From Proteiniborus sp. DW1 (GTDB lineage Bacteria; Bacillota; Clostridia; Tissierellales; Proteiniboraceae): DNA of 64,000 bases. Numbering within the stretch: the stretch's first letter is position 1; the number at the start of each line of letters is the position of its first letter. The stretch lies in the NCBI RefSeq assembly GCF_900095305.1, contig NZ_FMDO01000007.1, positions 62,001 through 126,000 on the forward strand, given 5' to 3'. Below are positions 41,624-60,699 of this stretch, one piece after another. Position numbers and translations under genes: made by a program. The notes below the pieces were generated by a model that did not search any database, was not told the origin of the DNA, and saw nothing but the letters and a program-made list of their open reading frames with translations.

Positions 41624-41626
41624 AGA

Positions 41627-41849: not shown

Positions 41850-43424
41850 ATGGACAGGATTCCAACAATACTTATAGATTCACTTCCTATTATTGCTAAG
41901 GTTACTTCTGGATATTCGACACTTACTAACAAAAATGGTGAAAGATTAAAGACTGTAGATTCTTCTGGACGCGAAATAGAAGATCTAAAGGGAATATACT
42001 ATGACTTAGCAAAGCAAGCAGCAGATGAACAAAAGCCTATATATGGTATGTCACAGATTGAAACTGGAGCAGAAACCTGGTGTATACCAATAGGGGATTA
42101 TGTATTATGTTGTAGTAATGTTGAGCGGATTAAATATAGTAATGCTCTTAAGCAGTCCTTGATTGATGCTTTACCTTTTATTGCCCGTGTTGCAGGAGGA
42201 GAGGCAGTGGTATTTGACGGCGAAGGTAAAAGATTGGCATCAATTAATTCAAATGGAGAGGTAAACGAAAAGTTTTTAGGAACCATAAGCAAAGATGCGA
42301 ATGAAGCAATGAAAGCACAGAAACCTGTTATTGGTGAATCAAACTATATTAGTGGTGCAAGTGCTGTTAGGATTCCAATGGGTAAGGATTTTGGCTTCGG
42401 ATTTAATAATGAGGACCATATTCAGAAAAACAATAGTTTAATGAATGAAATGAAGAAATATCAAAATGCAAAATATAACTTTTCTGATATTATAGGAAAT
42501 ACTAAAGAAATAGGTAGAGCAAAGGAAATAGCTAATATAGCTGCCCAGTCTAGCTCAAATGTTTTAATCTTTGGTGAAACTGGAACAGGAAAGGAAGTTT
42601 TTGCTCAATCTATTCATAATGCAAGCAATAGGGCTAATAAGCCTTTTGTAGCTATAAACTGCTCTGCCATACCTCAAAATCTTATGGAAAGTAGTTTTTT
42701 TGGATATGAAAGTGGAGCCTTTACGGGAGCAAAAAAAGGTGGTTCTGCTGGAGTTTTCGAACAAGCTAACGGAGGAACGTTATTCCTTGATGAGATTAGT
42801 GAAATGCATCTAGATCTCCAATCAAAGATACTGAGGGTTCTACAGGAAAGGGAAGTAAGGAGAATAGGAAGTGAGAAAGTAATTCATCTGGATATAAGAA
42901 TAATATCTGCTTCTAACAAGGATTTGGACAAGCTAGTCAATGAAGGGAAGTTTAGACAGGACTTATTTTATAGATTAAACGTCCTTGATATACAGCTTCC
43001 TTCATTAAGATATATAAAAGAAGATATTCCGTTACTTGTTAAACATGCAATTAAAAAAATGAATATTATTTTTGGAAGATTTGTGGAAGGTATAGACGAT
43101 GAGGCTTTAGGTACTCTCGTAAATTATAGTTGGCCTGGTAATATTAGAGAGTTGATGAATTGTGTTGAAAAAGCATTTAATATTATTGGTAATGAGAGAA
43201 TAATAAGGGTGAAGCATTTACCTAGAAACATTAAGGAAAGCCTTAATGTTTTAGATGTCAACGATGAGGGGCTTGAAGAAATGCTAAAAAGATATGAGCG
43301 AGAAATAATTCTTAAAGCTCTTAAAATAAATAATGGGATTAAGTCTAAAGCAGCTAATTATCTAAAAATTAGTACAACTACTTTGTGGAGGAAAATAAAT
43401 CAATTGAATATTGAGAATGAATAG
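41850..43424 (+). CDS. Sigma-54-dependent transcriptional activator with duplicated N-terminal domain
   Basis: The 524 residues divide into three parts. Residues about 7-88 and 105-190 are two copies of one domain: LIDSLPIIAKVTSG against LIDALPFIARVAGG, then KNGERLKTVDSSGRE against GEGKRLASINSNGEV, and QKPIYGMSQIETGA against QKPVIGESNYISGA. An AAA+ domain follows with Walker A GETGTGKE and the sigma-54-contacting ESGAFTGAKKGG; the C-terminal Fis-type helix-turn-helix is KSKAANYLKISTTTLWRKI. It has no receiver, PAS or known ligand domain, so the duplicated part is probably the sensor. AAGGAGG precedes the ATG. Its position and the sites at 43427 and 49790 suggest it controls nicotinate degradation. 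Confidence 0.88.
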   Translation: MDRIPTILIDSLPIIAKVTSGYSTLTNKNGERLKTVDSSGREIEDLKGIYYDLAKQAADEQKPIYGMSQIETGAETWCIPIGDYVLCCSNVERIKYSNALKQSLIDALPFIARVAGGEAVVFDGEGKRLASINSNGEVNEKFLGTISKDANEAMKAQKPVIGESNYISGASAVRIPMGKDFGFGFNNEDHIQKNNSLMNEMKKYQNAKYNFSDIIGNTKEIGRAKEIANIAAQSSSNVLIFGETGTGKEVFAQSIHNASNRANKPFVAINCSAIPQNLMESSFFGYESGAFTGAKKGGSAGVFEQANGGTLFLDEISEMHLDLQSKILRVLQEREVRRIGSEKVIHLDIRIISASNKDLDKLVNEGKFRQDLFYRLNVLDIQLPSLRYIKEDIPLLVKHAIKKMNIIFGRFVEGIDDEALGTLVNYSWPGNIRELMNCVEKAFNIIGNERIIRVKHLPRNIKESLNVLDVNDEGLEEMLKRYEREIILKALKINNGIKSKAANYLKISTTTLWRKINQLNIENE

Positions 43425-43426
43425 CG

Positions 43427-43440
43427 TTTCAAAATTGAAA
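43427..43440. promoter_or_regulatory. Candidate activator site (TTTCA-N4-TGAAA), ndhF side, site 1
   Basis: TTTCAAAATTGAAA, two bases after the activator's stop codon and about 265 bases upstream of the sigma-54 promoter. A half-site TTTTGAAA follows at 43453-43460. Confidence 0.5.
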
Positions 43441-43500
43441 TTTGCATTGCGATTTTGAAATACTGATTACTGTTGAATTTGTAAAGCTAGTAGTTTTTTT

Positions 43501-43540
43501 CTGAAAACATTTCAAAAATGAAAATGTTTTCAGAATTTTT
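43501..43540 (+). terminator. Hairpin after activator gene; contains candidate activator site 2
   Basis: CTGAAAACATTTCA pairs with TGAAA(A)TGTTTTCAG, one bulged A, then AATTTTTTTATT. It reads as the activator's terminator. The hairpin centre, 43510-43523, is itself TTTCA-AAAA-TGAAA, the same word as the other sites, so the stretch may do both jobs. Confidence 0.65.
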
Positions 43541-43693
43541 TTATTATTTTACATACAATCCACAATGATTTTTAAAGTTCATTAGTGAGAAAATAAACTT
43601 AAAAGATTATTTGTTAAAAGGTTGTAACAGTAGATGATTATATAGATTGCATAGCTACTTGGAAATAGTTATTTTTTTATCAGTATTTATAAC

Positions 43694-43711
43694 TTGGCAA
43701 GGCTTTTGCAT
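43694..43711 (+). promoter_or_regulatory. Sigma-54 promoter for ndhFSLM
   Basis: TTGGCA at 43694-43699 and TTGCAT at 43706-43711, with GG to GC spacing of exactly 12, matching TTGGCAC-N5-TTGCW apart from one base. It lies about 80 bases before the ndhF start. Confidence 0.85.
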
Positions 43712-43790
43712 AAATACACTATAAGAAATTGCAGCAGCTTAAGAACCAAAATTTGAAATATTCAAGTTAATAATGTGTAGGAGGGATAAG

Positions 43791-44663
43791 ATGAAACAAT
43801 TTTGTTACTATGCTCCATCAACAATTGAGGAAGCAGTAAAGATACTAACGGGAGCAGATGAGAATACTCAAATTATAGCCGGAGGGACTGACTTTATTGT
43901 TCAAATAAATCAAAAGATGATTTCTCCAGAAAAAGTAGTGGATATTAAAAAAATTAAGGAAATGAAGTATGTAAAAGAGGAAAATGGATTCATAAAGATT
44001 GGTGCTGCTACTAATTTTAGTGAACTAGACTGCTCTGAAATATTATTAAGAAAGGCTAAGGCTCTCGCTATAGCTTGTGGAGAAGTTGGCTCTACACAAA
44101 TTAGAAATCTAGGAACTATTGGAGGCAATATAGTAAATGCTTCTGCTGCAGGAGATTCTATAGCCGCTCTTATGGCTCTTGATGCTTCAGTTGTTTTAAA
44201 AAGTGAAAAAGAAGAAAGAGTTATGAAATTAGAAGAATTCTACCAGGGTCCTGGGAACTGCCAAATTAGAAAAGATGAACTATTGACTGAGATATTTTTC
44301 CAAAGTCCTAATGAAAGGACAGCTACAAGTTTTAAAAAGCTAGGAAAAAGAAAAGCTTTAGCTATAGTTGTTATAAGTGCAGGAGCTTTAATCGAAAAGG
44401 ATACTGATAACAAATGTACAAAGGCACAAATTTCATTAGGTGCTATTTCAAGATATCCAATAAGAGTTAGAGAAGCTGAAAAACTATTAATTGGAAAAGA
44501 ATTAAATGAGCAAAATATTGAAGCGTGTTTAGAGAAGTTAGCTGAAATAACAGACATCAGTGTTACCAACTCACCTTTTAAACACTTGGCCCTCTATAAG
44601 AGTTCAGCTATTAAGGGTATTGCAAGAGATATGTTTGCTGATATATTGGCAGATTTAAAATAG
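43791..44663 (+). CDS. ndhF: Nicotinate dehydrogenase FAD subunit
   Basis: 290 residues of the CO-dehydrogenase-type flavoprotein family: N-terminal FAD-binding IIAGGTDFIVQINQ and the middle TIGGNIVNASAAGDSIAALMALDA segment, then the C-terminal CODH_FAD domain. It carries electrons from the iron-sulfur subunit to NADP in the enzyme that hydroxylates nicotinate at C6. ATG 43791 after AGGAGGG is preferred to ATG 43773. It opens the sigma-54-driven operon ndhF-ndhS-ndhL-ndhM, the same four-subunit set as in Eubacterium barkeri. Confidence 0.93.
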   Translation: MKQFCYYAPSTIEEAVKILTGADENTQIIAGGTDFIVQINQKMISPEKVVDIKKIKEMKYVKEENGFIKIGAATNFSELDCSEILLRKAKALAIACGEVGSTQIRNLGTIGGNIVNASAAGDSIAALMALDASVVLKSEKEERVMKLEEFYQGPGNCQIRKDELLTEIFFQSPNERTATSFKKLGKRKALAIVVISAGALIEKDTDNKCTKAQISLGAISRYPIRVREAEKLLIGKELNEQNIEACLEKLAEITDISVTNSPFKHLALYKSSAIKGIARDMFADILADLK

Positions 44664-44693
44664 TATTATCTATCAAAAGAGGAGGTTTATATT

Positions 44694-45158
44694 TTGGAGA
44701 AAATAAAAATATCGTTTAACCTAAATAATGAAGATGTAACTATAGATATAAATCCAAATAAGAGATTAATAGACATGCTTAGAGAGGATTTTAAACTAAC
44801 AAGTGTTAAGGAAGGGTGTTCTGAAGGTGAGTGTGGTGCTTGTACTGTAATAGTAGATAGCTGTGCAGTAACTTCTTGTATTATGCTAGCTCCTCAAGTT
44901 CATGGAAGTACTGTAATTACCCTTGAAGGTTTATCTAAGAATGGCGATTTAGATAAGCTTCAACAGGCATTTATTGATGCTGGTGCTATTCAATGTGGTT
45001 TTTGTACTCCAGGAATGATACTTTCAGCTAAGGCTTTGTTTATGAAAAAATCTAATCCATCAAGAGAAGAGATTAAAAAAGCAATGTCAGGAAATATTTG
45101 TAGATGTACTGGATATAAAAAAATAATTGATGCAGTTGAAATAGCAAGAGATAAATAA
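44694..45158 (+). CDS. ndhS: Nicotinate dehydrogenase small [2Fe-2S] subunit
   Basis: 154 residues in two domains. Residues 1-80 are a plant-type [2Fe-2S] ferredoxin with CSEGECGACTVIVDSCAVTSC. Residues 81-154 are the four-helix domain of xanthine dehydrogenase-type enzymes with CGFCTPGM and GNICRCTGY. The two clusters link the molybdenum site in NdhL/M to FAD in NdhF. The start is TTG 44694, with GAGGAGG nine bases upstream. Confidence 0.95.
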   Translation: MEKIKISFNLNNEDVTIDINPNKRLIDMLREDFKLTSVKEGCSEGECGACTVIVDSCAVTSCIMLAPQVHGSTVITLEGLSKNGDLDKLQQAFIDAGAIQCGFCTPGMILSAKALFMKKSNPSREEIKKAMSGNICRCTGYKKIIDAVEIARDK

Positions 45159-45176
45159 ATGAAAGGAGGAACTAGA

Positions 45177-46451
45177 GTGGACAATTTAAATATAATTGGC
45201 AAGAGCGTTGAAAAAAAAGATTCACTTAGTAAAGCAATAGGTACAGCAATTTTTTCGGCTGATATAGAATTAGATAATATGTTATATGGTTCAGTTAAAA
45301 GAAGTACTGTAGCTTCTGCTATTTTAAAAAATATTGATACTAGTAAAGCAAAGGCGTTGCCAGGAGTTGCTGCTGTACTGACATACAAAGACATACCTGG
45401 AGATAATAGAGTAGGTATCATAATTAAAGATGAACCCATACTAGTTGATGACAAAATTAGAAGAATAGGTGATGCTCTGGCAATAGTTGCTGCTGAGACA
45501 AAAGAAATTGCCGAGGAAGCCTTAGATTTAATAGAAGTAGAATATGAAGAATTAGAAGGAATATTTACTATAGAAGATGCACTAAAAGAAGGGGTACATG
45601 CAATTCATGGAAACTCAAATGTTCTTCAAAATAAGGATTTGATTTTTGGTGATGTAGATGAAGCGTTTAAGCAATGTGATGTAATAGTTGAAGATACTTA
45701 TAAGACAAATTATTTTGCTCACATGTTTATCGAACCTGAGGCTGGTGTTGCCAAGTATGAAAACGGTATTTTAACATTCTGGAGCTCAACTCAGAATCCT
45801 CACTTTGATAGAGGCGAAGTGGCAAGAATGCTTAAACTTCCACAAAGTAAGGTTAGAAGTATTCAAGCTACTACAGGTGGTGGATTTGGAGGAAAGCTTG
45901 ATATATCAGTACAATGCCATGCTGCTTTATTGGCATATTATACTGGTAGACCAGTGAAGTTTGTTAGAAGTAGAGAAGAGTCTATGAAAGTTTCTTCAAA
46001 AAGACACCCTATGACTTTGAAGCTTAAAACAGGAGCAACAAGAGATGGAAAAATTTTAGCTTTAGATGCACATATAACAGGAGATACAGGTGCATACGCA
46101 TCATATGGACCTGCTGTTATAGGTAGAGCAATGACTCACTTAACTGGACCTTATGAGATTCCAAATGTAAGAGTTAAAGCAACTTTTGTATATACTAACA
46201 ACCCAATGGCAGGTGCATTTAGAGGCTTTGGAGTTCCACAAGCAGCTATAGCCCATGAAGGACAAATGGATTTACTTGCCAAAAAGTTAGGAATGGATCC
46301 AATCGAGCTAAGATTAAAGAATGCTCTAAGAGTTGGTTCTGTCACATCTACGGGTCAACTACTAACCGATGGTGTCGGTATAGTTGAGACTATAGAGAAA
46401 GCAGTGGAAAAAGCAAAAGAAGTGATTTTTACTGAAGGAGAGGTGAAATAG
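45177..46451 (+). CDS. ndhL: Nicotinate dehydrogenase large molybdopterin subunit
   Basis: About 424 residues, equal to the first half of the molybdenum subunit of xanthine dehydrogenase: an N-terminal a/b hammerhead domain (GVAAVLTYKDIPGDNRVG), then the first molybdopterin-binding domain with TTGGGFGGKLD, YTGRPVKFVRSREESM and GAFRGFGVPQA. The protein stops where other family members continue; ndhM supplies the rest. GTG 45177 is chosen, eight bases after AAAGGAGG; the ATG at 45159 lies before that site. The stop is two bases from the ndhM start. Confidence 0.93.
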   Translation: MDNLNIIGKSVEKKDSLSKAIGTAIFSADIELDNMLYGSVKRSTVASAILKNIDTSKAKALPGVAAVLTYKDIPGDNRVGIIIKDEPILVDDKIRRIGDALAIVAAETKEIAEEALDLIEVEYEELEGIFTIEDALKEGVHAIHGNSNVLQNKDLIFGDVDEAFKQCDVIVEDTYKTNYFAHMFIEPEAGVAKYENGILTFWSSTQNPHFDRGEVARMLKLPQSKVRSIQATTGGGFGGKLDISVQCHAALLAYYTGRPVKFVRSREESMKVSSKRHPMTLKLKTGATRDGKILALDAHITGDTGAYASYGPAVIGRAMTHLTGPYEIPNVRVKATFVYTNNPMAGAFRGFGVPQAAIAHEGQMDLLAKKLGMDPIELRLKNALRVGSVTSTGQLLTDGVGIVETIEKAVEKAKEVIFTEGEVK

Positions 46452-46452
46452 G

Positions 46453-47436
46453 ATGAAGAAAAGAGGAGTCGGAGTAGGATGTATGTGGTATGGAATAGGA
46501 AATACAGGATTACCAAATCCTGCTGCAGCCTTTGTAGAAGTACATGGAGATGGCTCTGTGACAGCTTTAGTTGGTTGTGCAGATATAGGACAAGGCTCTT
46601 CAACAGTAATGGCGCAAATTGTCGCTGAGACATTGGGAGTTAACTATGAAGATGTGAATGTGACTGCTGCTGATACAGGAGTGACACCAGAAGGTGGAGC
46701 TACTTCAGCAAGTAGACAAACATACATTTCTGGTAATGCGTGTCTTGCGGCAGCTAAAATGGCAAAAAAAACCTTAATAGAGGTAGCTGCTGAAGTTCTT
46801 GGTGTAGATGAGGAACTAGTCAACATTAAGAATAAAAAAGTAATAGTTACAAATGATGAATCAAAGCAAATGGATTTCTCTGTTCTTATGGATGAGATGA
46901 AGAAGAGAGGTAAGATTGCACTTGGAAGCGGTTCATTTAACCCTGATACAACAGCTCTAGATCCCGTTAACATGCAAGGTATACCATATGCTTGCTATGC
47001 ATATGCAACAAATATTGTAGAGGTAGAAGTAGATACAGAAACAGGAGAAGTACAAGTGTTAAAGGTAGTAGCTGCACACGACGTTGGACAGACTATTAAT
47101 GAAAAAATGGCTGAGGGACAAATAGAAGGTGGAGCTGCCATGGGAATGGGACTTGCTTTACTAGAAAAGGTTGAAGTAGAAAAAGGAGTTATTAAAAATC
47201 CAGGTTTTTCAAAGTATTTAGTTTATACAGCTGCGGATATGCCAGAAATATATCCAATACTTGTAGAAGATCCTACATTAACTGGGCCTTATGGTGCAAA
47301 GGGATTAGGAGAACCTGCTCTAATACCTGTAATACCAGCAATCTTAAATGCTATTTATGATGCTATTGGAGTTAGGTTTACTGAAGTTCCTGTAACACCT
47401 GAAGCAATAATAGAGGCATTAAAAAACAAAAACTAA
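46453..47436 (+). CDS. ndhM: Nicotinate dehydrogenase medium molybdopterin subunit
   Basis: 327 residues equal to the C-terminal half of a xanthine dehydrogenase molybdenum subunit: GCADIGQGSSTVMAQI, TPEGGATSASRQTYISG, and the active-site glutamate in GPYGAKGLGEPALIPV near residue 290. With NdhL it forms the catalytic site for C6 hydroxylation. The E. barkeri enzyme also has this split and contains labile selenium; its insertion factors are not seen in this window. AGAGGTG lies inside the end of ndhL, so the two are probably translated in a coupled way. Confidence 0.93.
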   Translation: MKKRGVGVGCMWYGIGNTGLPNPAAAFVEVHGDGSVTALVGCADIGQGSSTVMAQIVAETLGVNYEDVNVTAADTGVTPEGGATSASRQTYISGNACLAAAKMAKKTLIEVAAEVLGVDEELVNIKNKKVIVTNDESKQMDFSVLMDEMKKRGKIALGSGSFNPDTTALDPVNMQGIPYACYAYATNIVEVEVDTETGEVQVLKVVAAHDVGQTINEKMAEGQIEGGAAMGMGLALLEKVEVEKGVIKNPGFSKYLVYTAADMPEIYPILVEDPTLTGPYGAKGLGEPALIPVIPAILNAIYDAIGVRFTEVPVTPEAIIEALKNKN

Positions 47437-47459: not shown

Positions 47460-48515
47460 TTGAGTAAAAATGAAAACACAGCGCCAGCATCAAAACAAAG
47501 CTTTTTAAAGAGGAAGAATATTGAAATCTCTGTTAAAAGGTACCTAATTGATGCCATGGGTACAATGGCACTTGGTCTTTTTGCATCCTTATTAATTGGT
47601 ACTATATTAAACACTTTAGGGACTAAGCTAAACATACCTTTTCTAAGTGAAACCTTGTGGCCTATAGCTAAAGATATGACTGGAGCAGCTATAGGGGTTG
47701 CCGTAGCTTATGGTTTACAAGCTCCTCCACTAGTATTGTTTGCTTCCACTATTACAGGTGCAGCGGGAAATGCATTGGGTGGACCAGCTGGAGCCTTTGT
47801 TGCAGCGGTACTTGGTGCTGAACTTGGTAAAATTGTATCTAAAGAAACTAAGCTTGATATTATAGTTACACCAGCAGTTACGATTATTGTAGGAGTTTTA
47901 GTTGGAACAGCTATAGGACCAGCAGTTAATGGATTTATGACAGCAACTGGTGAGTTAATAATGTATGCAACAACTTTACAGCCATTCTTAATGGGAATAA
48001 TAGTTTCTGTTATAGTTGGTATGGTTTTAACTCTTCCAGTTAGTAGTGCTGCTCTTTGTATGATGCTATCTCTTGGTGGAATAGCAGGTGGAGCTGCAGT
48101 TGCAGGATGTTGTGCTCAAATGGTTGGTTTTGCTGTGATGAGCTTTAAAGAAAATGGTTGGGGAGGATTAGTTGCACAGGGATTAGGAACATCTATGCTT
48201 CAAGTACCTAATATAGTTAAGAACTGGAAAGTATGGATTCCTCCTACATTAGTTTCAGCTATAACAGGACCTATGTCGACAATATTATTTAAAATGGAAT
48301 GTACTCCAATGGGTGCAGGTATGGGAACTAGTGGTTTTGTTGGACAATTTGGTACTATAGAAGCTATGGAGGCTGCTGGTAAAGGTGGAGCCATGATGTG
48401 GGTTGGAATCTTAGTACTACATATTTTAGTACCAGCTGTACTTACTCCTATAGTAGCTAATGTTATGAGAAAAATGGGCTGGATTAAAGAGGGAGACTTA
48501 AAGTTAAGCTTATAA
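47460..48515 (+). CDS. PfoR / PTS_EIIC_2-like membrane protein, candidate transporter
   Basis: A 351-residue protein with about nine glycine- and alanine-rich membrane segments. It matches the stand-alone EIIC-like family (COG3641, PfoR) as I know it: ITGAAGNALGGPAGAFVAAVLGAELGK, and the late MGAGMGTSGFVGQFGTI. No EIIA or EIIB partner is present, so sugar phosphorylation is unlikely. Being in the ndh operon, directly after ndhM, it may bring in nicotinate or a related acid; this is inference. The start is TTG 47460, about nine bases after AGGGGG. Confidence 0.75.
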   Translation: MSKNENTAPASKQSFLKRKNIEISVKRYLIDAMGTMALGLFASLLIGTILNTLGTKLNIPFLSETLWPIAKDMTGAAIGVAVAYGLQAPPLVLFASTITGAAGNALGGPAGAFVAAVLGAELGKIVSKETKLDIIVTPAVTIIVGVLVGTAIGPAVNGFMTATGELIMYATTLQPFLMGIIVSVIVGMVLTLPVSSAALCMMLSLGGIAGGAAVAGCCAQMVGFAVMSFKENGWGGLVAQGLGTSMLQVPNIVKNWKVWIPPTLVSAITGPMSTILFKMECTPMGAGMGTSGFVGQFGTIEAMEAAGKGGAMMWVGILVLHILVPAVLTPIVANVMRKMGWIKEGDLKLSL

Positions 48516-48575
48516 TCAGTAAAAGCTTTAAATATTGTCTATAAAATTTGGGATAATTTGGTTAGGAATGTTTTT

Positions 48576-48609
48576 GCCACTAGCAGAGTAGAGATACTCT
48601 ACTAGTGGC
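48576..48609 (+). terminator. Strong intergenic hairpin after the PfoR-like gene
   Basis: GCCACTAG-AGAGTA and TACTCT-CTAGTGGC pair with one C/A mismatch around GAGA. No T-run follows, so it may be a processing or partial-termination element rather than a full terminator. Confidence 0.55.
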
Positions 48610-48649
48610 TATGTTAATTATATTAGAGTACTTGAATGAGGGGGCCTAG

Positions 48650-49732
48650 ATGAATGATTTAATACTTTACACCATATTTGCATTTGCTGTGCTAGGATGT
48701 ATTGATAAAATTATAGGAAATAAATTTGAATTAGGTGCCAAATTTACTGAAGGCTTTTTAGCTATGGGAAACCTAGCTATACCTGTAATCGGAATATATG
48801 CACTGGCACCTATAATTGGAGATATATTACTAAAAATTACTTTTCCTTTTTTTCAATTAACAAATATTGATCCTTCAATACTACCAGCATCTATATTTGC
48901 TGTTAATATGGGAGGATATGTTTCAGCTGTGAGAATGGCCCAAGCAACGGAAATGGGAGTTTTTTCTGGGATTATTTTAGCATCTACGTTAGGTGCAACG
49001 GTAGGTTTTACGATTCCTGCTGGAGTTGAAATTATTGAAAAAGAGGATCAAATCTATTTTGCTAAGGGAATATTAGCAGGAGTTGTTACTATACCATTAG
49101 GATGTATTGTAGGAGGTGTGGTTTTAAGGATTCCAACACTGATTCTTATACTTAATATATTACCAATTATGTTAATTGCTCTAATTTTTGCAATAGGTCT
49201 ATCGAGATGGCCAAATAAACTATTAAGAGGGTTTACATACTTTAGTAAGGTAACCACAACCATAGGTGCATTAGGAGTTATCTTAAGCATATTTGAGAGA
49301 ATTTCAGGGCTAAATCTGATAGCGGGCTTAGGTTCGTTTGATGAAGGGTTGAGAATAGTAGGAAGCATAACTGTAGTATTATGTGGTGCCTTTCCTATGA
49401 TTCATGTAATAACAAAAGTTTTCAAGAATTCACTTATGAGGCTTGGGAACAAGGTGGGGGTTGGAGAAAATGCTATTATTGCTATGTTGATCTCCTTATC
49501 AAGTAATGTCCCTGCTTTCATTATGATGAAGGACATGAATATTAAAGGAAAAGTTCTATTATCAGCTTTTATGGTGAGTGGAGCATTTACTTTTGGCGGT
49601 CAGCTTGGATTTGTAGCTAGTGTAGATAAAACTGCTATTATTCCATTCATTGTTGCAAAGATAATAGCTGGTTCTAGTGCAATTATTTTAGCTATGATAC
49701 TTATGAGAGAAAGTGTTGAAGCGAATATATAG
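48650..49732 (+). CDS. EutH-like membrane protein, candidate transporter
   Basis: 360 residues with about ten membrane segments, of the EutH (ethanolamine permease) family: FTEGFLAMGNLAIPVIGIYALAP, PSILPASIFAVNMGGY, and SSNVPAFIMMKDMNIKGKVLLSAFMVSGAF. No other ethanolamine utilisation gene (eutBC, shell proteins) is near, so the name should not be taken as function. It lies between the two nicotinate operons, ahead of the second sigma-54 promoter. GAGGGGG precedes the ATG. Import of nicotinate or export of a product such as propionate is possible. Confidence 0.8.
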   Translation: MNDLILYTIFAFAVLGCIDKIIGNKFELGAKFTEGFLAMGNLAIPVIGIYALAPIIGDILLKITFPFFQLTNIDPSILPASIFAVNMGGYVSAVRMAQATEMGVFSGIILASTLGATVGFTIPAGVEIIEKEDQIYFAKGILAGVVTIPLGCIVGGVVLRIPTLILILNILPIMLIALIFAIGLSRWPNKLLRGFTYFSKVTTTIGALGVILSIFERISGLNLIAGLGSFDEGLRIVGSITVVLCGAFPMIHVITKVFKNSLMRLGNKVGVGENAIIAMLISLSSNVPAFIMMKDMNIKGKVLLSAFMVSGAFTFGGQLGFVASVDKTAIIPFIVAKIIAGSSAIILAMILMRESVEANI

Positions 49733-49789: not shown

Positions 49790-49803
49790 TTTCAAAATTG
49801 AAT
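49790..49803. promoter_or_regulatory. Candidate activator site, hgd side, site 3
   Basis: TTTCA-AAAT-TGAAT, one base from the 43427 site, centred about 142 bases upstream of the -24 element. A one-mismatch TTACA-AATA-TGAAA copy follows at 49809-49822. Confidence 0.5.
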
Positions 49804-49873
49804 ATGCATTACAAATATGAAATGCTGTTTAATAAGACTATTGTAATAAGTACAGGATTGAACCAAAATAGCA

Positions 49874-49887
49874 TTTCAAAAATGAAA
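49874..49887. promoter_or_regulatory. Candidate activator site, hgd side, site 4
   Basis: TTTCA-AAAA-TGAAA inside GCATTTCAAAAATGAAATATGC, about 55 bases upstream of the -24 element; identical to the word in the hairpin at 43510. Confidence 0.55.
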
Positions 49888-49936: not shown

Positions 49937-49954
49937 TTGGCACAATAATTGCTA
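49937..49954 (+). promoter_or_regulatory. Sigma-54 promoter for hgd operon
   Basis: TTGGCAC at 49937-49943, five bases, TTGCTA at 49949-49954: a full match to TTGGCAC-N5-TTGCW with 12-base GG to GC spacing. It lies about 65 bases before hgd. Confidence 0.92.
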
Positions 49955-50018: not shown

Positions 50019-50915
50019 ATGAAAATAGGTTTTATTGGCTTAGGGGTCATGGGGAAAAGAATGGCTGCTAATGTACTTAAGAGTGGCTACCAGCTTATAG
50101 TATCTGACCTAAATAATGATGCAGTAAAAGAATTGGTAGAGATGGGTGCAGAGGAAGGACAGACTCCTGCTGAAGTTGCAAAGGATGCAGATATTGTACT
50201 TACATCGCTTCCGAACTCTGCTATTGTAGAAAATGTTGTTTTAGGAGAAAATGGGATTCTAGAAGGTGCTAAAGAAGGAGCAGTAATAGTTGATTTAAGT
50301 AGTATAACACCAAAATCAATACAAAATATTGCTGAAAAAGCTAATCATAAAGGTGTAGAAGTTTTAGATGCTCCTGTAAGCGGTGGAGCAGCAGGTGCAG
50401 AAAAGGGCACTCTTACAATTATGGTTGGAGGAAATAAAGAGTCCTTTGAAAAGGCTCTCCCTGTATTAAATTGTATAGGAACTAAAGTATATCATGTTGG
50501 TGAAGTTGGTGCAGGAGATACAGTAAAGCTAGTGAATAATCTTCTACTAGGAGCTAATATGGTAGCAGTTGCTGAGGCTTTAGCTTTAGGAGTTAAGGCA
50601 GGTCTTAAACCAGATGTTTTATACGACATAATTAGTCAAAGCTCAGGTGCTTCATATGCATTAACGGCAAAATATAAAAACTTTATAGCTAAAGGTAATT
50701 TTGAACCAGGATTTATGATTGATTTGCAGTATAAAGATCTACAGCTTGCGGTAGATACTGCTAAGGATTTAAAGATGCCATTAATTATAGGAAACTTATC
50801 ACAGCAAATGTTTGAAGCTGCAAGAGCAAAAGGATTAGGAGCTGAAGATATCTCAGCTGTATTAAAGTTATATGAAGATTGGGGAAATATAGAAGTAAGA
50901 GAGGAGCGGGCTTAG
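50019..50915 (+). CDS. hgd: 2-(Hydroxymethyl)glutarate dehydrogenase
   Basis: 298 residues of the beta-hydroxyacid dehydrogenase family: NAD(P)-binding GFIGLGVMGKRMAANVLKSG, substrate-binding DAPVSGGAAGAEKGTLTIMVGG, and the catalytic lysine in GDTVKLVNN near residue 170. By family alone it could be tartronate semialdehyde or hydroxyisobutyrate dehydrogenase; position in a complete nicotinate cluster makes reduction of 2-formylglutarate to 2-(hydroxymethyl)glutarate by far the best call. ACAGGAGG precedes the ATG. It is the first gene of the second operon, and hmd starts two bases after its stop. Confidence 0.92.
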   Translation: MKIGFIGLGVMGKRMAANVLKSGYQLIVSDLNNDAVKELVEMGAEEGQTPAEVAKDADIVLTSLPNSAIVENVVLGENGILEGAKEGAVIVDLSSITPKSIQNIAEKANHKGVEVLDAPVSGGAAGAEKGTLTIMVGGNKESFEKALPVLNCIGTKVYHVGEVGAGDTVKLVNNLLLGANMVAVAEALALGVKAGLKPDVLYDIISQSSGASYALTAKYKNFIAKGNFEPGFMIDLQYKDLQLAVDTAKDLKMPLIIGNLSQQMFEAARAKGLGAEDISAVLKLYEDWGNIEVREERA

Positions 50916-50917
50916 CT

Positions 50918-52324
50918 ATGGAACTTAAGGCTATGATTAATGAAAGAATGCCATTGACTCTTGGAGACATAGTAGAAATTGCAGGTAAAATAGATGTAAG
51001 GTTTGTTGATGTAATTCTAGCTGAAGCGGAAATTCAGACAGGAAAAAATAGAGAAGAAGTGCTAGAAGAAGCGCTAAAAGAGTTTGAACATAATTTACAG
51101 GCAATAGAGCTGGGCCTAACTACAGGAAGCAGCTTACTTCTTGGTACAACTGGTTCAGAGCTAAATAATATGGAAGGTTTCAGACTATTTCAAGATGAAT
51201 TTGTAGACAAAGCTCTGGTATACACAATAGCTGCTCAAGTAGGAAATCATGGTATAGGACTAAATCCATGCGCAGGTACTGGAGATTCTTGTCCTTACAC
51301 AGGTTTTATTAAAGCAATGCTTGAAATTGGATATGAAAAAAGTAGGGTAGCAGAAATAGCTGCAATAATATTAAAAGTAGGTTCAATGTTTAGGGTGGGC
51401 AAGACAACTACTGGATGTAATATGGAAGGATTTGGTGCAGGCTCTGCAGCTATAGCAGCAGCAACAGTTGAGTTGTGTGGGGGTAGTGCAAAGGATGTAG
51501 AACGTGCAATGGTAATAGCGATATCCCCAACCATAGGCGTTCCATGTACCCCTAGAGTTATGGTTCCTGCACTATGTGCGACTCATATAGGAGGAGCTAT
51601 ATTAAATGGTATATTATCGGCTAAACTAGCTGTTAAAACAAGCATAGAAGTAAATGTGCCTATAGATGTAATGTTAGCTATGGCAGCTGAAATTCACCCA
51701 ATATCAGCTAAATCTTTAGTGCCTACAGTAGTAGAGTTTATGCAACCATTCTTTAAGACTAAAGAACCTGTGGAAAGATTGATAGATCAGAAAATTAAAG
51801 ATGAAGAGAAGGTTCATATAGAACAAACATTAGTTAAAGCTAAAGAAATAGCTAAGAGGTTGGCTAAAGGTGCTAAACCTATTACAAATACTTTAGGAGA
51901 AGCAGTTGTTGGAGGAAGTAGTCAAGCTGTTGGTTCACCAACAAATACGGGAAGAATCGCACACTTTTTATCAAAAGGAAAAATAAATAAAGTAAAAATC
52001 GAACTTTATCCCGAATTATTTGCACGTAGGGGAATAAATGTTCCAGGTGTGTTAATGGGAGCAGTATATGGCTCATCAACTGCAGATGGAAAAATGTATA
52101 AGGAAGTAATGGAATTAGTAGAGAAAGAAGGAATAGCAGTAGAAATAGTTAAAGTGGATGAGTATCAAGTTCAAAGAGTTACAATTGTAACTGATGAAGG
52201 AACATTCATGGTAGATGCATTAAATAGAGGTGGAGGAAGGCTGGTTCTTCGTGATGCTACACCTTCAAAACAGGAAGCTGTTAATATAGCTAATAAATTA
52301 GGTATAGTGCTAGTTGAAGCGTAG
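50918..52324 (+). CDS. hmd: 2-(Hydroxymethyl)glutarate dehydratase (serine dehydratase-like, iron-sulfur)
   Basis: 468 residues related to iron-sulfur L-serine dehydratases, with both halves in one chain. The alpha-like region has NPCAGTGDSCPYTGF, GKTTTGCNMEGFGAGSAA and PTIGVPCTPRVM, whose cysteines are probable [4Fe-4S] ligands; the beta-like region follows (GGSSQAVGSPTNTGRIAHFL). It would remove water from 2-(hydroxymethyl)glutarate to give 2-methyleneglutarate. True serine dehydratase is the alternative, but the place between hgd and dmdA decides. ATG 50918 follows GAGGAGCGG and gives the natural N-terminus MELKAMINERMPL. Confidence 0.87.
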   Translation: MELKAMINERMPLTLGDIVEIAGKIDVRFVDVILAEAEIQTGKNREEVLEEALKEFEHNLQAIELGLTTGSSLLLGTTGSELNNMEGFRLFQDEFVDKALVYTIAAQVGNHGIGLNPCAGTGDSCPYTGFIKAMLEIGYEKSRVAEIAAIILKVGSMFRVGKTTTGCNMEGFGAGSAAIAAATVELCGGSAKDVERAMVIAISPTIGVPCTPRVMVPALCATHIGGAILNGILSAKLAVKTSIEVNVPIDVMLAMAAEIHPISAKSLVPTVVEFMQPFFKTKEPVERLIDQKIKDEEKVHIEQTLVKAKEIAKRLAKGAKPITNTLGEAVVGGSSQAVGSPTNTGRIAHFLSKGKINKVKIELYPELFARRGINVPGVLMGAVYGSSTADGKMYKEVMELVEKEGIAVEIVKVDEYQVQRVTIVTDEGTFMVDALNRGGGRLVLRDATPSKQEAVNIANKLGIVLVEA

Positions 52325-52340
52325 AAAGAAGGTGAAATAA

Positions 52341-53546
52341 TTGAACATTATAGAAAGAATTATCGCAAAAAAGGCTAATAAGGAAAGTGTTAGGGTTGGA
52401 GAGGAGCTAAGTGTGAAAATCGATTTAGCAATAGCTCATGATGTTACTGGTCCTTTAGCAATAGAGCAATTTTTAAAAATAGGATGTAATGAGGTATTTG
52501 ATAAGGACAAAGTTGTATTTGTAATGGATCATAACATTCCTTGTTCATCAGTTGATTCTAGAATTCAACATAGGACAATACATGAGTTTTGTGATAGATT
52601 TGGCGCTAAAATGTACAAGAGAGCTGAAGGGGTTATCCATCAGGTCGTACATGAAGAAGGCCTATATAAAAAAGGAGATATAATTGTAGGAGCTGATTCT
52701 CATACTTGTACAGCAGGAGCTTTTGGAGCAGTGGCTATACCACTAGGTTCAACTGAGCTTGCAGCAGTTATGGCTTTAGGAGAACTTGACTTAGAAGTAC
52801 CAGAAACTTATCTGATTAATATTGATGGAAAATTAAATCCTGGTGTTTATGGAAAAGATATTATCTTATATATAATAGGCAGGTTTGGGACAAATGGATT
52901 TACAGATAAAGCAGTTATTATTAGTGGAAGTACAATATTGGGACTAAGCAATGATGATAAGATGACAATCTCCAATATGATGATAGAAATGGGTGCTATG
53001 ATTGGTTTTATAGACCAAGGAGACGAAGAAATTGGTAAAGTAAAGGTTGTGTATAATATAAATGCAGCTAATATTCCTCCTGTGGTCGCTTGTCCTTCAT
53101 CACCAGGAAATGTAAGGGCCATTAAGGAAATAGAAGGGATAAAGATAAATCAAGCAGTTATCGGAAGCTGTACAAATGGTAGACTGTCAGATATGAGAAT
53201 AGCTGCTGAAGTATTAAAGGGTAGAAAGATTGCCCATGGAGTAAATATGGTAATAGTTCCAGCTTCAAAGAGAATCTTAGATAAAATGGAAGAAGAAGGG
53301 CTAACAAAGATATTTAGAGAAGCAGGAGCAATAGTTACTAATCCTGGATGTGGACCATGCTTTGGGGCACATCAAGGGCTACTATCAAAAGATGATGTAG
53401 CCATATCTTCAACAAATAGAAATTTCCCAGGAAGAATGGGACATAAGGAAGCAAAGATTTATTTAGCTTCTCCTAGAACAGTTGCAGAAAGTGCTATAAG
53501 AGGATGTATTACATGTCCTGGCACAGTAATTCCATTGGAGGGGTAG
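52341..53546 (+). CDS. dmdA: 2,3-Dimethylmalate dehydratase large subunit
   Basis: 401 residues of the aconitase/LeuC family, without the C-terminal swivel domain. Family motifs include MDHNIPCSSVDSRIQHR and GADSHTCTAGAFGA. The three cluster cysteines lie in GSCTNGRLSDM and NPGCGPCFGAH. It hydrates dimethylmaleate to (2R,3S)-2,3-dimethylmalate together with DmdB. On family alone it could be isopropylmalate isomerase or homoaconitase, but no leucine genes are near and the flanking genes form the nicotinate pathway. The start is TTG 52341 with AAGGTGA upstream. Confidence 0.9.
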   Translation: MNIIERIIAKKANKESVRVGEELSVKIDLAIAHDVTGPLAIEQFLKIGCNEVFDKDKVVFVMDHNIPCSSVDSRIQHRTIHEFCDRFGAKMYKRAEGVIHQVVHEEGLYKKGDIIVGADSHTCTAGAFGAVAIPLGSTELAAVMALGELDLEVPETYLINIDGKLNPGVYGKDIILYIIGRFGTNGFTDKAVIISGSTILGLSNDDKMTISNMMIEMGAMIGFIDQGDEEIGKVKVVYNINAANIPPVVACPSSPGNVRAIKEIEGIKINQAVIGSCTNGRLSDMRIAAEVLKGRKIAHGVNMVIVPASKRILDKMEEEGLTKIFREAGAIVTNPGCGPCFGAHQGLLSKDDVAISSTNRNFPGRMGHKEAKIYLASPRTVAESAIRGCITCPGTVIPLEG

Positions 53547-53551
53547 TTAGA

Positions 53552-54070
53552 ATGGACAAGATAAAAGGAAAAGCATTTATGCTTGATGAAAATGTCGATA
53601 CAGATCAAATACTTCCTGGATATGCCATGAGCTATCCAGTAGAAGAATTGAAAAAGGTCACACTAAAAGGAAGTATAATTCCAGATTTCCCAGAGAGAGT
53701 TAAACCAGGGGACATAATAATAGCTGATCATAACTTTGGATGTGGTTCTAGCAGAGAACAGGCACCTGTAGCACTAAAAAGCTCTGGAGTAGGAATAATC
53801 ATAGCTAAATCATTTGCAAGAATCTTTAGGAGGAATGCGATAAATATCGGACTTCCAGTAGTGACTTGTGAGTATATAAGGGAAATTAGAAAAGAAGCAA
53901 AAGAAAATGATGAGTTTGAAGTAGATTTAATTAAAGGCACAATAACTAACTTGAGAACACAAAATCAGTACAAATTAAATCAACTCTCTGAAACCACACT
54001 TGAAACACTAAAAGCAGGTGGACTGATTAATAAAGTTAGACAAAAACTTATGAAAAGGGGTGCTATCTAA
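53552..54070 (+). CDS. dmdB: 2,3-Dimethylmalate dehydratase small subunit
   Basis: 172 residues of the LeuD-type swivel domain: [39 protein letters not shown] and [16 protein letters not shown]. It completes the active site of DmdA. ATG 53552 after GGAGGGG is the likely start; an in-frame ATG at 53504 lies inside dmdA. Its stop overlaps the mgm start as TAATG, showing tight coupling. Confidence 0.92.
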
Positions 54071-55929
54071 TGGCTAAATTGAGACCAAATACAGAAAGAA
54101 TTATTAGAGAAGACATAGATAGAATAAAGGCGTACGAAAAAGCTTTCGGTGTTAAGATGCCATATATAGATGAAAACGGAGAAATACAGGGACTACCTGA
54201 TGCTTATCCAAGAGAGGTTAATGGTGTAGTTCGCAGTGGTTACAGATTAACAGAACTTGGTAGACAAGCTGTTAAAACAGGCAACCCTGTATTAAACCCT
54301 ATACTTGGAAGAAATAGCTCTGAGGAAACATACAAAGAATCACAACACATGTATGATATGGCTGAAAAGCTTGGCGTTACAATATTTCAGTTTGTACATT
54401 CTGAGGCAACAAGGCATATTGATCCCCTTGATGGAATAGAGCTAATAGAACAATCTAGAGGTAAAGGTGGAATCACACCAGCTGGAGAAAGAGAATTCGT
54501 TCAAATGGGCGGAGGTTCGAAACACCCAATAAGAATAAATGCTACTGGTGATACTACTCACTTAAATGTGTTAAATGCATTAATAGCTGGATTTGATGGT
54601 ACAGATTTAGGTCCAGTTATACACGTTCACTTTGGTGGGAGAGGAATCCATGACTTTAGAACAAAGGTAGTAAATGGATTCAAGGCAATCCAAATATGTG
54701 CAGAAAACAACATATTTGTTCAGCTTGATACACATAAGCATATTAACAATATAATGGGTACAGATGGAATGGCTTTAGCGATGGTTCTATTATCTGAGGG
54801 ACTAGCAGTAAAAGCAGGATTGGATAGAGCCTTAAGTGCTATTCAAATGAATGTAGGTGGGATTAACTTACTTGCAGATTTGGCTTTAGTAAAGGCATTT
54901 AGAGAGACTATCTGGAGTGAATTTATTATAGCAGTACCAGAAACCTTCCAAAACCCACCAGCAGATCTTATTGCAGAACAAGCTCATTTTGCTAGAATGG
55001 CAGTCTCAGCTAAATTAGCAGGAGCAAACTTCTATAGACCAAAGGCTGCAGAAAATGTAGGTATTCCAACTGGTGAATCAATGGCTAAGGCAATGTGGGC
55101 TACACAAAATGTATTTGAGGGAACATATAAAGTGGATATTCAGGATCCATTTATAGACCAAAGAAAAGAAGAAATAAAGGCTGAAGCAATGGCGGTATTA
55201 ACAGCTGCATTAAAAAGAGATAAAATGCTAAGACCAGAAGAGGTAAATGCAGAATTCTGGGCTCAATATGATGAACATGAGCTTATTGACCTAATAGTAG
55301 AGGCTGGTAGAAGTGGTATATTAGATACCCCAAGAGCAGGAGGTTGGGATCTAAAGAGATTTGTTAAGACAAATAGAGACAAAGATGGTATCAGAAGGTA
55401 TATAGCAGGCTATACTCCACTAGGAGTAGATGAAAAGTATATGCCTATTACTAAAGAAAATGTAGAAGTTCAAAAAGAAACTCCAATAACAAAAAAAGAA
55501 AAAGTAGTTTTAGCAACTGTAGGTGCAGATGCCCACGTAGTTGGAATCAATATGGTAAAAGAGGCAATACAAAAAGCAGGATACGAAGTAATATTCCTAA
55601 GGGGAATGAATCTACCAGAAACAGTAGCTGAAGTTGCAGCTGAAACTAAGGCAAGTGTTGTTGGAGTAAGTAACTTATTAGGACTTGGAATAACCTTATT
55701 CCCTAGAGTAGCTAAAAGACTTGAAGAACTTGGGCTAAGAGATGATGTAGTACTTCTAGCTGGCGGTAGAATTGCAGAAAAAGAAGAAGAACATGCTATG
55801 TATGAGAAAAAAATCAAAGAAGAGGGAACAGGTTTCCTTGGAGTTGATAACTTCTTTGGACCAGGAACAGACCTTGATGAATGTGTTAAATGGATAGAAG
55901 AACAGTTAAATAAAAAGAAAGGTAAATAA
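54070..55929 (+). CDS. mgm: 2-Methyleneglutarate mutase (adenosylcobalamin-dependent)
   Basis: 619 residues, close to the E. barkeri enzyme. A substrate barrel of about 470 residues is followed by a C-terminal B12-binding domain with [14 protein letters not shown] (cobalt-ligand histidine near residue 488), [10 protein letters not shown] and VLLAGGR, the DxHxxG-SxL-GG pattern of base-off mutases. It rearranges 2-methyleneglutarate to (R)-3-methylitaconate by a radical carbon shift. Only glutamate-type family members share this single-chain layout. B12 synthesis genes are absent from the window; a likely reactivase is encoded at 57113. Confidence 0.96.
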
Positions 55930-55955
55930 ATTTTTAGCAGTGAGGAGGCACAAAT

Positions 55956-57104
55956 ATGGAACAGATTAAAACACCTGTTGTTATTATGAGAGCTGGTACA
56001 AGTAAGGGAATCTTTATTAAAGAAGAAAATTTACCTAAAGACCCAAAAGAAAGAGATGAACTTATATTAAAAATATTTGGAAGCCCAGACATCAGGCAAA
56101 TTGATGGCTTAGGTGGGGCAGATCCATTAACTAGCAAACTAGCTATTATAGGACCATCTACAAGAGAAGATGCAGATGTTGACTACACATTTGGACAAGT
56201 ATCTTATGTAGCACCAAAAATAGATTATTCAGGAAATTGTGGAAATATCTCTGCAGGCGTTGGACCATTTGCAGTAGATGAAGGGCTTGTAAAGGTTGAG
56301 GAACCTTTCACAACTGTAAGAGTACACAATACCAATACAGGTAAATTAATAATTGAAAGAGTTGAAGTTGTAAATGGTAAGGCTAAAGTAACAGGAGACT
56401 ATAGCATAGCTGGAGTTCCTGGAACAGGCTCAGAGATAGTAATTGACTTTTCAGATACAGCTGGGGCAGCAACTGGAAAGCTTCTGCCTACAGGCAATGT
56501 AATAGATAAAATAGATGTAACAGGATATGGTGAGATAGAAGCTTCTTTAGTAGATGCAGCAAATCCTGTTGTATTTGTGAGAGCAAAAGATTTGGGCTTA
56601 ACAGGTATTGAGACACCATCACAAATAGATGAAAATAAAGCGATGTTAGCTACCCTTGAGGAAATAAGAGGAAAGGCTGCTGTTATGATGGGATTAGTAA
56701 AGGATTGGAAAAATGCAGTTAAAGAAGCTCCTGCATTTCCAATGATAGCATTTATTTCTCCAGCCCAAGACTATGTTGATTTTACAAAAGGTAAAGAAAT
56801 AAGCGAAAATGATGTGGACTTTGTTTCAAGACTTATGTTTATGCAAGTTGTTCACAAAACTTATGCTGGCACAGCAACTATCTGTACTGGAGCAGCTGCG
56901 AGAATAGAAGGTACAATAGTAAACGAAGCAATGAATGCAAAGGGCAAAGGCAAGAATGAAATTCTTAGAATAGGTCATCCAGCTGGAGTAATAACAATAG
57001 AAGTTGCTGCTAGCAAAGTGGATAATTGCTGGAAACTTGAAAAAGCTGCAATAAACAGAACTGCAAGGAGAATCATGGATGGCAACTGTTATACAGTAAA
57101 ATAA
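55956..57104 (+). CDS. mii: 3-Methylitaconate delta-isomerase
   Basis: 382 residues of the PrpF / diaminopimelate epimerase fold: VVIMRAGTSKGIFI at the start, GLGGADPLTSKLAIIG, and DYSGNCGNISAGVGPFAVDEG. Lys61 and Cys95 match, within one residue, the Lys62 and Cys96 I recall from the E. barkeri enzyme. It moves the double bond of (R)-3-methylitaconate to give dimethylmaleate. GAGGAGG precedes the ATG, 26 bases after mgm. PrpF or aconitate isomerase is the family alternative; neighbours settle it. Confidence 0.95.
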   Translation: MEQIKTPVVIMRAGTSKGIFIKEENLPKDPKERDELILKIFGSPDIRQIDGLGGADPLTSKLAIIGPSTREDADVDYTFGQVSYVAPKIDYSGNCGNISAGVGPFAVDEGLVKVEEPFTTVRVHNTNTGKLIIERVEVVNGKAKVTGDYSIAGVPGTGSEIVIDFSDTAGAATGKLLPTGNVIDKIDVTGYGEIEASLVDAANPVVFVRAKDLGLTGIETPSQIDENKAMLATLEEIRGKAAVMMGLVKDWKNAVKEAPAFPMIAFISPAQDYVDFTKGKEISENDVDFVSRLMFMQVVHKTYAGTATICTGAAARIEGTIVNEAMNAKGKGKNEILRIGHPAGVITIEVAASKVDNCWKLEKAAINRTARRIMDGNCYTVK

Positions 57105-57112
57105 GGGATGGA

Positions 57113-58534
57113 ATGAAAATGCAAAAGTACGATTATTTAATTATAGACATAGGAAGTACTTACACAAAGCAAAGGCTGTTTAAAGACTTTGAATTAGTGG
57201 CGACTGTTCAGTCGCCTACTACAGTGGAAAATGTTTATAAAGGAATAAAAGCTGGACAGGACATTATAAAGACAACATTAAGTGAGAGTAAAATAGAATC
57301 GGAACATGTTTTAGCTTCTAGTAGTGCAGCAGGTGGACTAAGAATGGTAGCCATGGGATATATGACTAGAGTTACTGCAAAGGCAGCAAAAGAGGTAGCT
57401 ATGAACTCAGGTTCTAAAATACTGGAGATAGTCTCTAATGAAAATCTACCAGAATACAGAATACAGATTTTAAAGGAAATAAATCCAGATATCATACTTT
57501 TAGCTGGTGGAACTGATTTTGGAGATGAATCTTCACTTATAGAAAATGCACATTTAATAGTAGAAAGTAAAGTCAAAGGTGTAGTAATTATAGCTGGTAA
57601 TATAAGTGCCCAGGCTGAGGCTGCTCAAATATTAAAGGCTGGAAATGTGGCTCATTTAAGAGTTCCAAATATAATGCCCACTATTCATAAGCTAAGAGTA
57701 AAGGAAGCTAGAGAAGCCATTCATAAAGAATTCATTAAACAAATTACTAAAGCACAGGGGTTGAGTATATTACAAGAAGAGATTACTAATGATAAAATCA
57801 TACCTACTCCTGGAGCAGTTTTAATGGCATCTGAGTTACTAGCTAAAGGAACTTATTTAGAAAAAGGAATAGGTGAAATAATCGTAGTTGATTTAGGAGG
57901 AGCAACTACTGATATTCACTCAGTAATACCTGGCTATGCTAATCTAGAGGATGAAGAAATCGGTCTTATTGTAAGCAATGAAAAACAGATATCCTATAGA
58001 ACCGTTGAAGGTAATTTAGGTATGCGTATTAGTGCTATGGGGGTTATAGATGTAGTAAGTCCTAAAGCTATCTTCCACAAAAGAGGAATTAAAGATGAGA
58101 AGTTACTAGAAGAGTTTATTCAGTATTGTATGGAGGTAGAAAGGACGCCTAGGCATATAGCGCAGAACGAAAAGGAATATATGTTTGACACACTTATTGC
58201 AGAAACAGCCGTTGAAGTAGCTTTGAAAAGGCATGCAGGATTTATCTCTACAGTTGCCGACCCCATAACGGGTCTTATGCCAGGAATGCCAGTGGGTAGA
58301 GATTTGAGAAATGTGAACACTATAATCGGCGTTGGAGGGATTTTTTCCCATAGGGATGTTTCAGAAGGAAAAGAGATAATAAGAAATGCATTAAAAGATA
58401 AAGGCATTTCGCTCTTACCAAATGATCCGAAAATAATAATTGATGAAAACTATATATTATATACTGGCGGGCTTATATCTCAGATTGATGAAGATTATGC
58501 ATTTAAGGTACTAAAGAATAGTTTTAAATTATAA
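57113..58534 (+). CDS. MutL/GlmL-type protein, probable reactivase for the B12 mutase
   Basis: 473 residues of the MutL family of ASKHA ATPases (unrelated to mismatch repair MutL). The N-terminal phosphate loop is IIDIGSTYTKQRLF, LLAGGTDFG lies near 130, and the second nucleotide site is VVDLGGATTDIHSV near 260. In glutamate fermenters glmL sits between glmS and glmE and is thought to replace damaged B12 cofactor on the mutase. Here it lies two genes after mgm, which suggests the same service for methyleneglutarate mutase. AGGGATGG lies before ATG 57113; ATG 57119 is also possible. Confidence 0.87.
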   Translation: MKMQKYDYLIIDIGSTYTKQRLFKDFELVATVQSPTTVENVYKGIKAGQDIIKTTLSESKIESEHVLASSSAAGGLRMVAMGYMTRVTAKAAKEVAMNSGSKILEIVSNENLPEYRIQILKEINPDIILLAGGTDFGDESSLIENAHLIVESKVKGVVIIAGNISAQAEAAQILKAGNVAHLRVPNIMPTIHKLRVKEAREAIHKEFIKQITKAQGLSILQEEITNDKIIPTPGAVLMASELLAKGTYLEKGIGEIIVVDLGGATTDIHSVIPGYANLEDEEIGLIVSNEKQISYRTVEGNLGMRISAMGVIDVVSPKAIFHKRGIKDEKLLEEFIQYCMEVERTPRHIAQNEKEYMFDTLIAETAVEVALKRHAGFISTVADPITGLMPGMPVGRDLRNVNTIIGVGGIFSHRDVSEGKEIIRNALKDKGISLLPNDPKIIIDENYILYTGGLISQIDEDYAFKVLKNSFKL

Positions 58535-58551
58535 TACTTGGAGGTAACAGC

Positions 58552-59418
58552 ATGAAAAAAACTACAATATTAAGACAATTACTAAATTCTAAGGAAATAC
58601 TAGTAGCTCCAGGAGCACATGATGCATTAACAGCAAGAGTTATAGAAAAATCAGGATTCAAAGCAATATACATGACAGGATATGGACAAGCAGCTAGCGT
58701 GTTAGGTAAGCCAGACATTGGCTTATTAAGTATGACTGAAATGTTAGATAGAGCTAGAAAATTTGCAAGTGCAGTAAATATACCGGTTATAGCAGATGGA
58801 GATACTGGATTTGGTAATGCCATAACAGTAATGAGAACTGTAGAAGAATATGAAGCAGCAGGGGTTGCAGCTATTCAACTTGAAGATCAGGTTGCACCTA
58901 AAAGATGTGGACATATGCTTGGAAGAAAAGTAGTAAGCCTAGATGAAATGGTTGGTAAAATAAAAGCAGCTGTAGCAGCTAGAAAAGATCCAGATTTCGT
59001 CATAATAGCTCGTACAGATGCACGTACTATTCATGGAATTGACGAAGCAATAAGAAGAGCGAAGGCTTACGAAGAAGCTGGTGCTGATGTAATATTTGTA
59101 GAATCAGTTGAAAGTATAGAGGAAATGAAAAGAGTAAATGAAGAAATCAAGGTTCCTACATTAGCTAACATGGTTGAAGGTGGTAGAACTCCACTTTTAT
59201 TAAATAAGGAGCTAGAAGATATAGGGTATAGTCTAGTTATTTACCCAACAGCATCAACATACGTAACTGCAAAAGCTATGTTTGATCTAATGGAAGCACT
59301 AAAATTAAATGGAACTACTGCAAAAAGTATTGACAAGATGATAACATTCTCAGATTTTAATGATTTAGTAGGATTGGGAAATTATGCAGAGCTTGAAGAC
59401 AAATATGTAAGGGAATAG
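58552..59418 (+). CDS. dml: 2,3-Dimethylmalate lyase
   Basis: 288 residues of the isocitrate lyase / PEP mutase family: APGAHDALTARVIEKSGFKAI, PVIADGDTGFGNA, the loop KRCGHMLGRKVV with the catalytic cysteine, and IIARTDART. It splits (2R,3S)-2,3-dimethylmalate to propionate and pyruvate, the last step of the pathway. 2-Methylisocitrate lyase (PrpB) is the closest alternative, but no methylcitrate cycle genes are present. GGAGG precedes the ATG. A 97-base gap to ena follows without an obvious promoter. Confidence 0.93.
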   Translation: MKKTTILRQLLNSKEILVAPGAHDALTARVIEKSGFKAIYMTGYGQAASVLGKPDIGLLSMTEMLDRARKFASAVNIPVIADGDTGFGNAITVMRTVEEYEAAGVAAIQLEDQVAPKRCGHMLGRKVVSLDEMVGKIKAAVAARKDPDFVIIARTDARTIHGIDEAIRRAKAYEEAGADVIFVESVESIEEMKRVNEEIKVPTLANMVEGGRTPLLLNKELEDIGYSLVIYPTASTYVTAKAMFDLMEALKLNGTTAKSIDKMITFSDFNDLVGLGNYAELEDKYVRE

Positions 59419-59515
59419 CAATAGATTCTTTAGTTATTAACCTGAGCTTAGTTCAGTAGAGCATTATGATCTTGCCCTCACTGGATTTTAGTTAAAATAA
59501 AGGGAGGTAGTTATA

Positions 59516-60676: not shown

Positions 60677-60699
60677 GCAAGAAAGGAGAAAAATAGTCT

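Follow-up and report, generated by a model that had tools for sequence, protein, structure and literature searches.

The stretch of DNA analysed here, 64,000 nucleotides of the genome of Proteiniborus sp. DW1 (hereafter the window), carries two neighbouring operons on its forward strand. The first begins with ndhF, ndhS, ndhL and ndhM (43791..47436), whose molybdenum hydroxylase domains (Pfam and NCBIfam) mark them as the subunits of nicotinate dehydrogenase; their order is that of the Eubacterium barkeri locus. It continues with two membrane proteins, one PTS_EIIC_2-like and one EutH-like (47460..49732, forward strand), which are probably transporters. The EutH-like protein, encoded at 48650-49732 between the PTS_EIIC_2-like gene and hgd, is without a match in the two closest clusters, L001 and L036. 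The second operon (50019..62217, forward strand) contains hgd, hmd, dmdA, dmdB, mgm, mii, a mutL-like gene, dml, the enamidase gene and hnr, identified by their domains and by orthologous clusters in other genomes, and makes up the remainder of the nicotinate-fermentation pathway. These pathway names were assigned from domain matches, gene order and comparison with the E. barkeri pathway. The promoters of the two operons jointly head the complete nicotinate-fermentation pathway of the genome.

Directly upstream of the ndh operon, next to ndhF, lies a gene (41850..43424, forward strand) for a sigma-54-dependent activator (enhancer-binding protein, EBP) of 524 residues. Its Pfam domains are Sigma54_activat (PF00158; 1.6e-69), the AAA+ domain that interacts with sigma-54, and a C-terminal Fis-type helix-turn-helix (HTH_8; 2.1e-9). 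The Walker A motif (GETGTGKE) and the GAFTGA loop, within the AAA+ motif ESGAFTGA, are both intact, and the genome holds one copy of rpoN. The initial annotation had placed this protein in the sigma-54 class, and these domains and motifs bear it out.

What does the N-terminal domain of this activator sense? Residues 1-205 belong to no Pfam family, the sole trace being a match to Robl_LC7 (E 0.06) in one family member, and have no sequence relative in the PDB; the genome contains a single copy of the domain. Its predicted model (pLDDT 93) consists of two PAS/GAF-like units in tandem, and structure comparison returns PAS/GAF-like small-molecule sensors at Z 6.5-9.1, values too middling to name the ligand of the modelled domain. 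Two identities for the protein were considered and rejected. Matches to RtcR in PADLOC reflect the common AAA+ and HTH parts alone. PrdR, the best-scoring NCBIfam model, scores 396 bits where its curated cut-off is 795, and aligns with residues 192-519 only, in the AAA+ and HTH part.

Each operon is preceded by a -24/-12 element found by pattern match. That of the ndh operon, TTGGCAAGGCTTTTGCA (43694..43710, forward strand), has its GG at 43696-43697 and its GC at 43708-43709, 12 bases on; some 80 bases separate its end from the ndhF start codon (ATG, 43791), just as the initial annotation had described it (TTGGCA-N6-TTGCAT). The element of the hgd operon, TTGGCACAATAATTGCT (49937..49953, forward strand), is a perfect match to TTGGCA-N6-TTGCW with the same 12-base GG-to-GC spacing. 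This pattern occurs eight times in the whole genome and its reversed control not at all; two of the eight are the sites of the window, and three others adjoin other sigma-54 activator genes.

Upstream of the ndh element lie three palindromic sites, given here without strand. Site A, TTTCAAAATTGAAA (43427..43440), is conserved in related loci. Site B, TTGCGATTTTGAAA (43447..43460), is degenerate and begins 20 bp from A; site C, TTTCAAAAATGAAA (43510..43523), begins 83 bp from A. The TTTCA-N4-TGAAA words first noticed at 43427 and 43510 are therefore sites A and C, while the supposed half-site at 43453 is present in the sequence as the right half of site B. Exact TTTCA-N4-TGAAA occurs three times in the whole window against 0.14 expected from shuffles, and the third copy pointed to an equivalent second control region before hgd (49790-49953). 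There, site A is TTTCAAAATTGAAT (49790..49803), site B is TTACAAATATGAAA (49809..49822) and site C, again TTTCAAAAATGAAA (49874..49887), stands outside any extended hairpin. At both promoters the A-B distance is 19-20 bp and the B-C distance 63-65 bp. The window has two full triplets, and 100 resamples generated from it by a first-order Markov model have none; on these resamples, control spacings and reversed patterns, an origin by chance was rejected. The initial annotation was thus right about a site before ndhF, and it understated the extent of the arrangement, which has three operators at each promoter and recurs before hgd in a copy that it had overlooked. Before the activator gene itself we found neither a triplet nor a -24/-12 element that would point to autoregulation; a sigma-70-like TTGACA-18-TACTAT lies there at 41788.

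Do the triplet and the activator occur together in other genomes? Relatives were gathered by a search with Hmd, which gave 67 loci, and the triplet follows the pattern TTkCA-N4-TGmAA with A-B distances of 19-22 bp and B-C distances of 52-77 bp; spacing windows, score cut-offs and the genomes to be compared were settled in the course of the analysis, not in advance. A first scan returned 19 triplets, where control spacings gave 0-5. In all, 30 were found across the window and every fetched locus, 25 of them followed by a -24/-12 element at no more than two mismatches. They precede ndh, hgd, hmd, ena and related operons in relatives that include Sedimentibacter, Tepidanaerobacter, Dethiosulfatibacter, Sporomusa and Desulfosporosinus, which is the outcome of the search near ndh genes of relatives that the initial annotation had proposed as a check.

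By genome-wide search, activators that share the N-terminal domain occur in 20 of 30 pathway genomes and in 2 of the 390 remaining genomes of the class (compared by Fisher's test), and at several loci such an activator adjoins the nicotinate cluster. The triplet stands before pathway operons, usually with a -24/-12 element after it, in 19 of the 20 genomes with the activator and in 2 of the 10 without, counts that are not independent because the genomes are phylogenetically related. The activator-negative set consists of pathway genomes searched genome-wide for the activator. Both exceptions in it are metagenome-assembled genomes (MAGs) in which at most about 350 bp separate the triplet from a contig end; truncation at that point may have removed the activator gene. 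When A-B pairs were sought by pattern, they were found in 13 of 31 genomes, the reversed control giving none in all 31; each pair, including that in G400, lies on a contig with the pathway or the activator. On this comparison of sequences, we conclude that the triplet layout travels with the activator gene across the Bacillota.

Two further loci may be mentioned here. In genome G397 a third triplet with a weak -24/-12 element (L137:13994-14272) precedes a cytosine/purine-type permease, a candidate nicotinate importer. At L117:1037-2966 a 4-hydroxybutyryl-CoA dehydratase-like (abfD-like) gene, named by eye, has a distant paralogue of the activator as its neighbour, and two similar palindromes lie 83 bp apart between the two genes. 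The XanR group, according to the main text of PMC6615313, targets abfD.

How are the sites spaced along the helix? The A-C distances cluster at 73-76, 83-88 and 95-97 bp, that is, in steps of about one helical turn. At a period of 10.5 bp the B-C distances share a phase (R 0.58, a value that 0.02% of uniform draws attain, with promoters that are not independent of one another). The distance from C to the -24 element, by comparison, varies between 63 and about 300 bp, and across the triplet promoters no phasing of C relative to the -24/-12 element was detected. DNA loops tolerate variable distances, and an unphased spacing between C and the promoter is what a loop would be expected to show.

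Site C of the ndh promoter has a second apparent role. It forms the apex of what looks like the intrinsic terminator of the EBP gene (43499..43545, forward strand), a 14-bp perfect inverted repeat with a T-run and a fold z of -4.3; a stricter, GC-based terminator scan does not list this hairpin. Site C is such an apex with T-run in 8 of 19 activator-adjacent promoters (the window, L001, L002, L003, L036, L049, L108 and L112) and in none of 11 others (Fisher p 0.014, at a cut-off picked after inspection of the data). The first five activator-adjacent promoters were all positive, which suggested a universal feature; the full set of 8 in 19 disposed of that idea. The overlap may save space, or it may couple termination to binding of the activator.

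What of nicotinate fermenters that lack the activator? The nicotinate cluster of Eubacterium barkeri, reportedly the subject of Alhapel et al. (2006; cited in PMC10331938), encodes homologous enzymes of the same pathway. Unlike the window, with its activator and triplet, E. barkeri has a LysR-type gene beside the cluster (L140:6998-7957); the activator is absent from its genome. LysR-type genes occupy similar positions in L139, L145, L146 and L147, likewise from fermenters without the sigma-54 activator. As classed by eye from translated N-termini, such genes stand beside the cluster in E. barkeri, E. aggregans and Pseudoflavonifractor, and a GntR-like gene, also classed by eye, does so in Desulforhopalus. 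No triplet was found at the nicotinate loci read in these four. The LysR-type genes are an apparent replacement of the regulator for the same pathway. In the MAG locus L004 a different, PAS-type activator gene lies near hgd, with -24/-12-like elements. Two distant orthologues of the activator within nicotinate clusters (L020:7698-9263 and L044:8059-9417) have degenerate Walker A and GAFTGA motifs, and neither a triplet nor a -24/-12 element was found at their loci. This combination fits a lost sigma-54 function, and a conversion to a non-sigma-54 regulator is possible.

To which protein do the palindromes belong? Palindromes do not by themselves name their protein, and these are AT-rich and simple; they might be the sites of another regulator, a repressor or a global factor, while the activator uses others. 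We consider this quite unlikely, since the triplet tracks the activator (19 of 20 genomes with it against 2 of 10 without, both at contig ends), was not found at the loci read in the LysR-bearing fermenters, and in 31 genomes is never represented by a pattern-found A-B pair away from a pathway or activator contig. That the palindrome at 43510 is merely the loop of the activator's terminator, without an operator role, would agree with its 14-bp stem, T-run and fold z, and is nonetheless highly improbable: the same core serves as site C before hgd at the same spacing and without a hairpin, it recurs in relatives whose site C is no terminator, and where stems vary between species the TTTCA-N4-TGAAA core stays. 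The operons might also be transcribed chiefly from sigma-70 promoters, the -24/-12 elements being minor or decayed. Both strands of 41560-43900 do hold 20 sigma-70-like matches against 10.8 in shuffles, in DNA that is AT-rich; yet 25 of the 30 triplet promoters retain a -24/-12 element, whose distance from the triplet varies, and the pattern has eight matches in the genome against none for its control. We judge this reading very unlikely.

The reading that we favour, and hold to be very probably correct on the comparative evidence, is that one sigma-54 activator, encoded beside ndhF, switches on both operons of anaerobic nicotinate fermentation through its A, B and C sites. Control of ndh and hgd by the activator and sigma-54 is supported because triplet and activator co-occur and because the sites recur with -24/-12 elements; the presence of rpoN agrees with it. 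The earlier suggestions that ndhF is under sigma-54 control and that the TTTCA-N4-TGAAA words are putative enhancer sites of the adjacent activator are both favoured by the same comparison. The weak points are the degenerate site B before ndhF and the variable distance from C to the promoter.

How might such a system work? Each palindrome would be occupied by one dimer of the activator, held there by the Fis-type helix-turn-helix, and by analogy with NorR the three dimers of a promoter would nucleate an AAA+ hexamer on sites A, B and C. DNA looping would then carry the hexamer to the sigma-54 RNA polymerase. Activation would be licensed once the tandem N-terminal domain had bound a small pathway molecule, be it nicotinate, 6-hydroxynicotinate or one of the dicarboxylate intermediates. 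At the ndh promoter of this genome, site C would form the terminator of the activator gene as well.

The closest parallel is NorR, the regulator of norVW in E. coli, whose active oligomer is scaffolded by three enhancer sites (PMC2941729). Here too, as read from the sequence, three sites at conserved spacing lie upstream of one sigma-54 promoter, and an N-terminal ligand domain presumably controls an AAA+ activator. The N-terminal domain of NorR, however, is a single GAF domain with iron, its target genes differ, and the merging of site C with a terminator at part of the loci sets the present system apart. Among the 39 groups of sigma-54 activators of the Clostridiales described in the main text of PMC6615313, which include PrdR, the activator of proline reductase, the design is likewise familiar: a one-component activator with a Fis HTH beside its target operon, multiple upstream sites and a -24/-12 element. 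The motif differs from the TGT-N10-12-ACA type, and the window activator resembles PrdR in its AAA+ and HTH parts only. Nicotinate genes appear in none of the 39 groups in that main text. In the searchable literature we found no description of the regulation of anaerobic nicotinate fermentation, in agreement with the initial annotation, which knew of none for sigma-54 control. Sigma-54 control by a neighbouring activator is of a known kind; the nicotinate regulon is new as far as that literature shows, and some of its architecture is unusual.

A bolder proposal, which we regard as possible though doubtful, is that the activator is the founding member of a family of sigma-54 regulators so far unrecognised. 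Its members would carry a tandem PAS- or roadblock-like metabolite sensor and assemble as three dimers on sites in helical phase, with A and C about 7, 8 or 9 turns apart. In some lineages the third site would double as the terminator of the regulator's own gene, where binding might affect read-through into the operon.

For the anaerobic fermentation of nicotinate (vitamin B3), the analysis supplies a predicted regulator, operator code and set of promoters. Target genes are predicted in about twenty genomes, one of them with a candidate nicotinate permease. Spacing and terminator overlap vary naturally among the promoters, and this variation could serve as a compact test of the way in which the hexamer of a sigma-54 activator is assembled on three sites.
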